Origin: Neisseria wadsworthii 9715
Lineage (GTDB): Bacteria; Pseudomonadota; Gammaproteobacteria; Burkholderiales; Neisseriaceae
Length of the DNA: 64,000 nt
Assembly (NCBI RefSeq): GCF_000227765.1
Contig: NZ_JH165159.1
Span: 2,298,478 to 2,362,477 of the forward strand
Reading direction: 5' to 3'
The position numbers and the translations under genes are program-made. The notes beneath the pieces are model-generated. The model was not told the origin of the DNA and did no database searches. It saw only the letters and a list, made by a program, of their open reading frames with translations. Of the stretch, positions 49,146 through 51,664 are shown piece by piece (position 1 is the first letter of the stretch; every line of letters starts with the position of its first letter).

Positions 49146-49185
49146 TGCCTGTCTGAAAGCCATTGGCTGCTTTTCAGACAGGCAT
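49145..49185. terminator. DUS inverted pair between the NTF2-like and SDR genes
   Basis: ATGCCTGTCTGAAA and its complement (14 bp) with a 13-base loop, between convergent genes. Confidence 0.7.
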
Positions 49186-49195
49186 TCATTCAGGC

Positions 49196-50026
49196 CTACT
49201 GAAAAGAATCTACCGGCAAAGGCTTACGCCCCAACAATGCTTCAAATCCAGCGGATTCCGCCACAGAACCTGCACGCAAAAGCTTCATGCTGTCCGGGCT
49301 TACCATACCGTTACTGAAGCGCTTGGCAGCATAGGCGGCCAAATCAGCCACCCAAGCCGGTATGGGAATGATTTTCCTGGTATTTTTTCCATGAATATTC
49401 CGGCGCATCACAGCCAGATATTCGGCCAAGCTGCATTCGCGGCTGCCCGTCATTTCCACCACCGCCGGCGAGGCTGTCGGCTGTTCCGCCATCTTGCACA
49501 AACCCTCCGCCACATCATCCACATGCACCGGCTGCAAACGGTACGCTCCTCCCTCTGGCAACGGCAGCAGCAGCAACTTAGCCAGCTTGATAAACAACTC
49601 ACAGCTCGCCCCACCGCGCCCAAAAACTACCGAAGGCCGCGCAATCCCCACATCCAAACCACTTTGCAACAACGCCGCGTCACCACGACCTTTGCTGCCC
49701 AAAAAAGCCGTTTCATGATCCTTATGCGCCCCCAAAGCGGAAAGCTGAACAAACCGCCTCACTCCCGCTTCACATGCAAAACGCGCAATCTCAAGCAGCG
49801 CAATATGATGCACGGTTTCCAACACATCCGCCCGATACGACATCACACCAACGGCGTTAACCACGCAATCTGCCCCTTGCAGCAAAGGCATGAGCCGATC
49901 CTTCTGCGGTTGTAGATAATCAAAATCCACCCGCTGCACGGCCTTTACCCGATGCCCGCGCTCACTCAGCATCTGCCCCACGCGTTTACCGATAAACCCG
50001 CTCCCGCCAAACAACACGATATTCAT
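49196..50026 (-). CDS. NAD(P)-binding SDR-like protein (NDUFA9-like)
   Basis: About 276 residues. The N-terminal nucleotide-binding motif FGGSGFIGKRVGQMLSERGH and the pattern VNAVGV and RFVQLSALGA match atypical short-chain dehydrogenases of the NmrA/NDUFA9 group, close to putative NAD-dependent epimerases. The start at 50026 is the second of two adjacent ATGs, six bases after AGGA. The substrate is unknown. It is the last gene of the DoxX-like / DUF2269 / SDR run. Confidence 0.8.
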   Translation of the reverse strand: MNIVLFGGSGFIGKRVGQMLSERGHRVKAVQRVDFDYLQPQKDRLMPLLQGADCVVNAVGVMSYRADVLETVHHIALLEIARFACEAGVRRFVQLSALGAHKDHETAFLGSKGRGDAALLQSGLDVGIARPSVVFGRGGASCELFIKLAKLLLLPLPEGGAYRLQPVHVDDVAEGLCKMAEQPTASPAVVEMTGSRECSLAEYLAVMRRNIHGKNTRKIIPIPAWVADLAAYAAKRFSNGMVSPDSMKLLRAGSVAESAGFEALLGRKPLPVDSFQ

Positions 50027-50057
50027 CATCAATCCTTTCAGACAGGCATCACAATAA

Positions 50058-50528
50058 TCAATAAGGCTTCAAAACCATCAAGAAATACACCACCAGCATC
50101 GCAGCAAACGCAGGATAACCCAGCAGCTCCCAATACCTTGCCGCCCGCCAATATTCCGGCGGCAGCTCGTCTTTATTTTCCGCCGCAGCCTGCGCCGCCA
50201 TTTTCGCCATGCGGATTTGCAACACTACCACCGGCAACCAGCAAATTCCGGCCAGCGCATACAGCGCCAACGTGCCCCAAATCCAAGTAACACTCCACGG
50301 CACACCCAGCTCGTGCATCATCCACAAACCCGACAAAGGCTGAAAAATTACCGCCGGCGTAGTAAACCACCAATCGGCCCGACACACCCATTTAGCCACC
50401 ACCGCCTGCGCCGGAACACAGCCGCTGCGGTTGGCAAAAAACAGATAAAACGCCGTACCGAAACCCGTACCTACCATCAACGTGGCCGACAAAATATGCA
50501 AAGTCTTTACGATCAAATAAGTGTTCAT
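50058..50528 (-). CDS. DUF2269 membrane protein
   Basis: A 156-residue inner-membrane protein with four helices and the DUF2269 signature (TLHILSATLMVGTGFGTAFYLF and the W-x-F-TTPAVIFQP segment). The start at 50528 (MNTYLIVKTLHILS) has GGAGTGGGAA upstream. Its ATG overlaps the stop of the DoxX-like gene (ATGA). Function unknown; members often occur with DoxX-like and SDR genes, as here. Confidence 0.85.
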   Translation of the reverse strand: MNTYLIVKTLHILSATLMVGTGFGTAFYLFFANRSGCVPAQAVVAKWVCRADWWFTTPAVIFQPLSGLWMMHELGVPWSVTWIWGTLALYALAGICWLPVVVLQIRMAKMAAQAAAENKDELPPEYWRAARYWELLGYPAFAAMLVVYFLMVLKPY

Positions 50529-50911
50529 TTCCCACTCCTTTTCATCAAATAAAACATCAATGCCGCAATCGGCAGGTTTTTCAATAAAGGCGCAAACGGA
50601 TGCAGCCAATGTTCAGGCAGGCACAGCCCCACAATCAGGCTGTACACAACCACCACAACCAGCTGCACTGCCCAAAGCGCCACCCTCCTGCGCAACGGGC
50701 TAAAACATGCCAAGCCCAACACAACATCCAGCGCCGAAGCCGCCCACAACACCGGCATCTGCCAAACCTGCCCGATACCCACCTGCCGCAACAAATCCAA
50801 CGACACCTCCTGCGCAGTCAGCAGAGGCTGCACGCCGCTCCAAATTCATAAAATCCCGAGAGATGCCGCCAGATAACCCGGCGTAGCACCCGAATGTTTC
50901 TTATACTTCAT
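50525..50911 (-). pseudogene. DoxX-like membrane protein with an in-frame TGA
   Basis: From the ATG at 50911 the frame reads MKYKKHSGATPGYLAASLGI, then L-stop, then I-W-S-G-V-Q-P-L-L and on to residue 129. The TGA at 50846-50848 sits exactly where the DoxX-like family has a tryptophan (LxWIxxGxxP), so a TGG to TGA change explains it. The rest of the frame, four helices and a basic end, is intact and ends in ATGA with the DUF2269 start. A GTG at 50833 could give a shortened 102-residue protein. Either a nonsense mutant or a truncated protein. Confidence 0.75.
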
Positions 50912-50928
50912 AACACTTCCAAAATTTC

Positions 50929-50956
50929 TTTAATTTCTGTTTTAACAGAAATTAAA
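50929..50956. promoter_or_regulatory. Palindrome 1 (candidate operator)
   Basis: A 28-bp palindrome with 13-bp arms containing TTAATTTCTGT...ACAGAAATTAA. It begins 18 bases upstream of the DoxX-like start codon, a place suited to repressor control. The same 11-bp arm with a 4-base spacer recurs at 51265-51300. Confidence 0.6.
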
Positions 50957-51012
50957 AGTTAAAAATAGAACGATTTTTATTTCAAAAACGCTTACTTATT
51001 GTGAAAATGACA

Positions 51013-51045
51013 TTAACGCAAGGTTGCGAGCCTCAGACAGTACGG
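51013..51045. repeat. Correia-like repeat remnant, second copy
   Basis: GCAAGGTTGCGAGCCTCAGA followed by CAGTACGGATAATG. It matches the reverse complement of the 41508-41544 stretch at most positions over about 25 bases, including an unbroken CAGACAGTAC. Confidence 0.45.
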
Positions 51046-51264
51046 ATAATGAACCAGCACAGTATGAACATTCAGCTTCATAATCATAAAGACAAACTAT
51101 GTTTCTACCCTACAGGCCGAGCTTTGCTAAAACAATCACGGCAAAGCAAAATAAAAATGCCTTTGAAATATTTGTCGATTATTTAATACAAGCCATAATT
51201 AAATGCCTGTCTGAAAATCATGCTTCATATAATTAGTCTAATAGCTGTTGATTACATTTTAACC

Positions 51265-51300
51265 TTTTATTAATTTCTGTCAATACAGAAATTAATAAAA
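51265..51300. promoter_or_regulatory. Palindrome 2 (candidate operator)
   Basis: A 36-bp element with 16-bp perfect arms (TTTTATTAATTTCTGT, spacer CAAT, complement). It shares the 11-bp arm TTAATTTCTGT with palindrome 1, 309 bases away. No gene starts next to it. Confidence 0.6.
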
Positions 51301-51346
51301 TACTTTCAAACACAGCCCGAAAACAATGCCAAGAAGTGAGAATGAT

Positions 51347-51384
51347 AAAAATGCCTGTCTGAAAATTTTTCAGACAGGCATTTT
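51347..51384. terminator. DUS inverted pair after the glutaredoxin-like gene
   Basis: AAAATGCCTGTCTGAAAA and its complement (18 bp) with a 2-base loop, 17 bases beyond the stop at 51401. Confidence 0.75.
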
Positions 51385-51400
51385 ACATACTGCACATAAT

Positions 51401-51664
51401 CTACTGACTAAAACAAGCTTTCAGCTCATCGGGCATAAACACATAATCGCCATCATCCGTAATCAGCACCGGCACCCCTACCGACAAAGTTCCCCGACGC
51501 GATGCATAAGCATCCGCTGTGTCGCGCACTTGCAAAAAGCGTTTCAAGTTGGCCATGCTTTCCGTAATATCAATCGCTTCATATTCCACCCCTAATTCTT
51601 GTAAAGCGGCATCAAACGGCGGTGTATCGGGGCATAAGCTGCTATAAAAATAAAGGTTCGGCAT
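51401..51664 (-). CDS. Glutaredoxin-like protein
   Basis: 87 residues with a thioredoxin fold: LYFYSSLCPDTPPFDAAL at the N-terminus has a single cysteine (C11, CPDT), so it lacks the second active-site cysteine of dithiol glutaredoxins. The cis-Pro segment is GVPVLITDDGDYVF. Substrate unknown. It follows rsmJ by 11 bases, so they are co-transcribed. A monothiol role or a non-redox thioredoxin-fold role are both possible. Confidence 0.8.
   Translation of the reverse strand: MPNLYFYSSLCPDTPPFDAALQELGVEYEAIDITESMANLKRFLQVRDTADAYASRRGTLSVGVPVLITDDGDYVFMPDELKACFSQ

Follow-up and report, generated by a model that had tools for sequence, protein, structure and literature searches.

The two long palindromes that flank a gene-free interval upstream of a DoxX operon in Neisseria wadsworthii are very probably operators of one GbsR-like regulator, whose gene is found beside upp instead of between them and whose product would act on them in trans through tandem control. 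In the linked layout, which most operon-bearing relatives show and which we infer to be ancestral, the elements follow one another in a single reading direction as operator/promoter, regulator, operator, DoxX, DUF2269 and SDR. The distal operator covers the -35 box of the regulator's promoter, and the proximal one fronts the DoxX operon. In the lineage of the window (the whole 64-kb stretch of DNA analyzed here), the regulator gene is absent from between the palindromes and is represented by a single copy beside upp, with one operator before it and one after it, while both operators and a promoter-like site have remained at the DoxX locus. The upp-linked regulator may bind copy 1 and copy 2 in trans, presumably as a repressor rather than an activator, and the old regulator promoter at copy 2 would be transcribed across the empty interval into DoxX. 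The operon would then be under double control, through promoter access at copy 2 and immediately before the start codon at copy 1. The pair provides a precise candidate operator for a widespread, mostly uncharacterized group of GbsR-like regulators, and a handle on the DoxX/DUF2269/SDR membrane operon.

The sequence TTAATTTCTGT-N4-ACAGAAATTAA (11 + 4 + 11) occurs at 50930-50955 and 51270-51295 with no mismatch at either place. The window holds no further match at up to three mismatches, and 100 shuffles yielded none. Both palindromes are AT-rich and perfect, spanning 28 bp in copy 1 and 36 bp in copy 2. An earlier sequence-only reading of this DNA had placed them correctly and had given the right arm lengths: copy 1 (50929-50956, minus strand) consists of 13-bp arms (50929-50941 and 50944-50956) around a 2-nt loop, and copy 2 (51265-51300, minus strand) of 16-bp arms (51265-51280 and 51285-51300) around a 4-nt loop. 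Copy 1 lies just upstream of the DoxX-like start, as that reading had observed, at 17–18 bases from the ATG at 50911. It is the predicted operator of the DoxX operon, and each of the 13 genus genomes with this operon has a palindrome (at up to two mismatches) before DoxX. The interval between the copies (50957-51264, no strand assigned) was said to lack a gene, and its longest ORF indeed measures 61 aa and matches no Pfam family at E up to 0.1. To the right of copy 2, a glutaredoxin-like ORF (below the Pfam cut-off) on the minus strand ends at 51401, so that no gene starts beside copy 2, again in agreement. The proposal that the interval consists of repeat debris did not hold, as positions 50956-51200 match nowhere else in the genome at E up to 0.01. 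The interval shows weak 20-nt similarity to DNA of relatives and contains one copy, at 51204-51215, of the 12-mer TGCCTGTCTGAA, which we take to be a DNA-uptake sequence and which has 58 copies in the window. No regulator remnant was detected in the interval by tblastn (best E 0.66 in the window's genome and 0.049 over all five intervals of the split type described below) or by blastn (best E 0.082), and these values were treated as noise. The former presence of a regulator at this position is consequently argued from the relatives and from operator identity. A 9-base match between the regulator start and the interval, GAAGCATGA, was dropped as post hoc.

The operon itself lies on the minus strand. 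The DoxX-like gene (PF13781; 50525-50911, ATG at 50911) has an in-frame TGA as its codon 22 (50846-50848, minus strand). This stop breaks the gene, so that its longest ORF begins only at 50833, and the part past the TGA matches Pfam with E 8e-23. No stop is present at this codon in the close relative G006. The TGA reflects either a genuine nonsense mutation or an error in the assembly, and in the former case the operon may be decaying here. The second gene encodes a DUF2269 membrane protein (50058-50528; Pfam E 1.8e-54), and the third an NAD(P)-binding SDR/epimerase-like protein (49196-50032; PF01370, E 4.4e-10). Inverted pairs of TGCCTGTCTGAA at 49146-49184 and 51352-51380 bracket the operon. 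The genus genome G030 presents an empty site, in which IspB, a DUF4440 gene, the glutaredoxin-like gene and RsmJ follow one another and the two inner genes are separated by 156 bp that hold no operon (DUF4440 was assigned by Pfam, IspB and RsmJ are readings of the ORFs). The bracketing pairs and the empty site together suggest gain or loss of the operon by transformation.

Two more sites in the same genome match ATTTCTGT-N4-ACAGAAAT with 0–1 mismatch, 683 bp apart and approximately 417 kb away. They bring the genome total at this stringency to four, two at the DoxX locus and two flanking the regulator gene (C1:1932344-1932868, minus strand; 175 aa), which is the only regulator match found in the window's genome. 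One of the upp-locus operators sits 24 bp before the regulator start codon and the other before the next gene, which is predicted to encode a small membrane protein; on the far side of the regulator, upp runs divergently. The sequence-only reading had the regulator as lost; it is not missing from the genome, where the gene stands beside upp with an operator pair of its own. By its sequence, the regulator is a member of the GbsR-like branch of the MarR family. It matches MarR_2 (PF12802) with 39.2 bits against a cut-off of 27, as a MarR-type winged helix-turn-helix protein should, and over residues 13-142 it resembles Mj223/1ku9 (phmmer E 3.7e-11), which serves as structural template for GbsR proteins. 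The A/T-rich inverted repeats at the regulator and putative target promoters are likewise of the kind seen for GbsR-type operators. Membership of the choline-type osmostress subgroup (GbsR/OpuAR/OpcR/CudC) is not supported, the score against the choline regulator CudC equivalog being 48.9 bits for a cut-off of 218. The stretch A53-R-S-N-V-S58, conserved in 62–65 of 65 regulator sequences, is taken for the recognition helix.

This distribution of sites bears on the reading of the palindromes as a small mobile repeat or as an RNA hairpin or terminator. Perfect, AT-rich palindromes of such length would suit elements of this kind. A mobile repeat, however, is difficult to reconcile with four genomic sites that all fall at two loci, or with the 23 sites found at three mismatches against 30 for a reversed control. 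In several phyla, moreover, the motif sits close to the starts of regulator genes (61 of 64, see below). This alternative is therefore hardly credible. The terminator version was rejected separately, as no terminator-like site was found. The sequence-only reading had itself named a common repeat at random sites as a finding that would speak against operators, and the genome does not present one. The count of 23 sites against 30 also means that no larger regulon is seen in the window's genome, in which one site with two mismatches (C1:1768982) is present.

Regulator and palindrome co-occur across the genus. Among 46 genus genomes, the regulator was found in 14, the palindrome (at up to one mismatch) in 15 and DUF2269 in 13. 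The palindrome is present in all 14 regulator-bearing genomes and in one of the 32 without the regulator (G039, with one 1-mismatch site; Fisher p 6e-11), while the reversed control matches 5 of the 46. Eight of the 13 genomes with the operon (G007, G014, G019, G024, G025, G027, G029 and G038) have the order palindrome, regulator, palindrome, DoxX, DUF2269 and SDR, all in one direction. The interval of the window thus corresponds to the position of the regulator in these relatives. The sequence-only reading had called for a regulator adjoining the palindromes in relatives and for a gene at the interval position; both exist, the adjoining gene is the GbsR-like MarR-family one, and its view of the palindromes as operators is upheld to the extent that they look operator-like. 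An internal TAG noted in the G029 regulator proved to be its natural stop.

The orientation of the regulator separates our reading from the one first proposed, in which a divergent regulator once lay between the palindromes and each palindrome served one of two opposed promoters. An operator pair flanking a gap is indeed a usual look of a divergent pair, and the placement of a regulator between the palindromes is borne out in relatives. Nevertheless, the regulator has the same direction as DoxX in all eight linked genus genomes, and the promoter-like site that overlaps copy 2 is directed toward DoxX. Accordingly, a divergent arrangement with opposed promoters is extremely improbable.

The remaining five operon-bearing genomes, which include that of the window (G000, G006, G004, G013 and G032), are split. 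Each has two palindromes before DoxX with no regulator between them, and the regulator is located beside upp. The spacing of the two palindromes, from start to start, is 340 bp in G000, 215 bp in G006, 671 bp in G004, 188 bp in G013 and 61 bp in G032. A further genome, G026, has kept an upp-linked regulator and has no DUF2269 match. In G004, the space between the two palindromes contains an ORF of 157 aa (L020 6022-6495, minus strand) that reads as membrane-protein-like and shares the direction of the operon and the orphan promoter, a possible case of promoter capture by a new gene.

Copy 2 is overlapped by a promoter-like sequence, TTGACA-16-TAAAAT (51256-51283, minus strand), which faces DoxX, matches the consensus at 11 of 12 positions and places its -35 box (TTGACA) inside the operator. 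It is the sole minus-strand promoter match in 50850-51420. Since the scan of both strands gave three matches against 2.2 in shuffles, the evidence lies in the conservation of this site and not in the scan. Read toward DoxX, the distal palindrome is ATTTCTGTATTGACAGAAAT in all five split genomes, with 20 of 20 bases identical, including TTGACA. The same sequence forms the regulator-side operator in seven of the eight linked genomes, G007 differing by one base. This core identity marks copy 2 as the orphaned putative operator of the regulator's own promoter. The fourfold-degenerate sites of DUF2269 have diverged by 0.41–0.63 in nine of the ten pairs of split genomes (0.09 for G000/G006), and the split-genome intervals otherwise align in short stretches only. 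In G004, G013 and G032, the operator of the upp-locus regulator has changed, whereas the orphan operator has not. The persistence of these 20 bases despite the divergence of DUF2269 suggests that copy 2 is probably a working promoter-operator.

The same comparison weighs on the possibility that copy 2 is a dead relic, left when the regulator was lost and not yet decayed. No gene start adjoins copy 2, the interval has no remnant, and the agreement between G000 and G006 by itself says little, as these two are close (fourfold divergence 0.09). On the other hand, G004, G013 and G032 retain the same 20 bases at DUF2269 fourfold divergences of 0.55–0.63 from G000, and outside copy 2 the intervals align between genomes in short stretches only. 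We consider a relic improbable, although less so than the repeat or the divergent regulator, and regard copy 2 as probably functional in what follows.

The linked layout extends to other genera of the family. In 10 of 12 fetched DoxX operon loci, the regulator lies between two palindromes and is co-directional with the operon; the loci were chosen for holding the palindrome, and this proportion is thus not an unbiased sample. The locus in G057, at a contig end, was not counted, and palindrome places in G055, G056:C7, G058:C17, G058:C22, G059:C25 and G073 lie outside the fetched set. With the eight genus genomes, this makes 18 linked loci, and in every one of them the regulator and the DoxX operon run in the same direction. 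The motif also occurs outside regulator-bearing genomes: among 11 genomes examined, one-mismatch palindromes with no regulator match were seen in G039, G055, G056, G073 and G082. As the reversed control matches 6 of 83 genomes, these palindromes may be background, but there are three sites in G056. Upstream of a gene read as cytochrome c peroxidase-like, G050 and G051 have a palindrome, ATTTCAGTATTGACAGAAAT (L155 5515-5534 and L156 5496-5515), and their 46%-identical regulator is encoded elsewhere, away from it.

One genome of a second genus, G063, has an arrangement parallel to that of the window. Its two operators lie 370 bp apart with no regulator between them, and the distal one, ATTTCTCTCTTGACAGAAAT, is identical to the regulator operator of the congeners G058, G059, G061 and G064. 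The only regulator match is on another contig, beside a gene whose ORF reads as cytochrome c-type, and it falls within the congeners' clade with 100/100 support (six rows, including G057 of the neighboring genus). The SDR gene is on a further contig, 49 bp downstream of an exact palindrome, which links it to the same control. To judge from these features, G063 appears to be an independent parallel of the split layout, and its tree favors a move of the regulator. G049 was tried as a third split case, with palindromes before DoxX, between, and before a DCC1-like gene (by eye); it is not clean and was left out of the clean-case counts.

How the regulator came to lie beside upp may be explained in two ways. 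Instead of moving, the operon-linked copy may have been made dispensable by a paralogous or horizontally gained copy of the same specificity at upp. This history is nearly as likely as not, and it is compatible with trans control of both copies, since it concerns the past of the regulator only. The upp-linked regulators form a clade of their own (100/98) outside the operon-linked ones and are not nested among them, so that a move and a replacement by a paralog followed by loss are equally possible. In the DUF2269 tree, the split genomes are not clearly united. Two regulator copies occur in certain members of other families. In G004 and G013, the small membrane-protein gene is part of the DoxX operon, and in G000, G006 and G026 it is next to the regulator. 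Its presence in both settings ties it to the regulon, and because G004 and G013 are split as well, it speaks against a single joint move of this gene and the regulator. Against replacement, none of the 14 regulator-bearing genus genomes has two copies, and the displaced regulator of G063 nests among the linked ones of its congeners (100/100).

The association of motif and regulator extends well beyond the family. A single scan of titled records gave 64 loci with regulator relatives, from Neisseriaceae, Cardiobacteriaceae, Psychrobacter, Oxalobacteraceae, Chitinibacteraceae, many sphingomonads, Opitutales, Planctomycetes and others; L064, L066 and L068 of this set correspond to G026, G029 and G049, which had already been counted. 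For 61 of the 64 regulator genes, TTTCTGT-N4-ACAGAAA at up to two mismatches lies upstream, no more than 150 bp from the matched start, at a median gap of 24 bp (range 2–125). The same strict motif is found within 250 bp downstream of the matched regulator end in 45 of 64, as compared with 4 of 2656 control windows of 250 bp. Among 26 newly returned order-level loci (L171–L196, strand-corrected count), the upstream motif at up to two mismatches is present in 22 in its strict form and in 25 when relaxed with W, against 2 of 234 in the control for both. In relatives, recurring companions of the regulator include a DCC1-like thiol-disulfide oxidoreductase and a fatty acid desaturase (L020 4546-4968, L025 9747-10157, L069 10908-11720, L071 and L072; Pfam matches for the first three, the desaturases of L071 and L072 by eye), hinting at a membrane-lipid or redox role.

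A bolder version of our reading has about an even chance of being right. It states that the captured regulator promoter is the operon's main promoter; that the tandem trans switch has been under selection since before the split genomes diverged and has arisen again in a second genus; and that the TTTCWGWN4WCWGAAA pair marks an undescribed multi-phylum regulon. If so, an operator pair around the regulator would mark a broad GbsR-like regulon of DoxX, DUF2269 and SDR genes and their companions in several phyla. The split loci also offer a natural experiment in regulatory evolution, in which the regulator is gone while the promoter and both operators are conserved, in two genera.

In the open-access literature searched, no GbsR- or MarR-type regulator tied to DoxX or DUF2269 genes was found, nor was the strict TTTCTGT-N4-ACAGAAA found printed in any of three spellings. 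The available portions of published reports mention DoxX within a different gonococcal gene set, DUF2269 in one row of a transcript table, and DUF2269 as a distant match of a urate oxidase domain. A survey sorted GbsR-type genes into four neighborhood classes, with 73 genes in neighborhoods without deducible function (PMC6207618, seen in part), and the DoxX-linked regulators may belong to this 73-gene class.

Known GbsR-type systems, as described in the available portions of their reports, provide comparisons for the regulator and for its operators. CydE of Alishewanella sp. WH16-1 is a GbsR-type repressor of cydAB that binds its own promoter region (PMC6096048). Its footprinted site 1, TATTTCAGAAATTTCTGAAAGTTCA (PMC6096048), is the nearest published footprint seen and includes TTTCAGAAATTTCTGAAA. 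This site matches the relaxed TTTCWGWN4WCWGAAA at every position and differs from the strict window motif at four; the relaxation (two positions per half-site to A/T) was chosen after this site, and 8–9 of 61 loci have A there. The second footprinted site, GGGATGCGCATATGCAAAT, bears no resemblance to the motif. CydE controls cytochrome bd, whereas no cyd family was matched among the genes examined at the regulator and DoxX loci: none among the 11 ORFs that reach 120 aa at the 12-kb regulator locus (three of which have no Pfam match at E 0.001) and none among five genes around the DoxX locus. The target of CioR of Chromobacterium violaceum, a GbsR-type protein of the cioRAB operon, is also cytochrome bd (PMC11837568); no operator sequence (inverted repeat, palindrome, footprint or motif) is given in the portions of that report examined. 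As a GbsR-type repressor encoded within the operon under its repression, CioR is comparable with the regulator considered here. OpcR and GbsR of Bacillus subtilis are MarR-type repressors with A/T-rich operators (PMC7396694, in part), and they control genes for glycine betaine synthesis and uptake, GbsR sensing choline (PMC7396694). The operator of GbsR is built as an inverted repeat whose halves are 4 bp apart, and the protein is described as a roadblock positioned downstream of the start; the OpcR operator overlaps the -35 box (PMC7396694). These positions resemble those of copy 1 and copy 2, respectively: an operator over the -35 box, as at copy 2, would block RNA polymerase in the manner of OpcR, and one right before the start codon, as at copy 1, could be a roadblock like that of GbsR.
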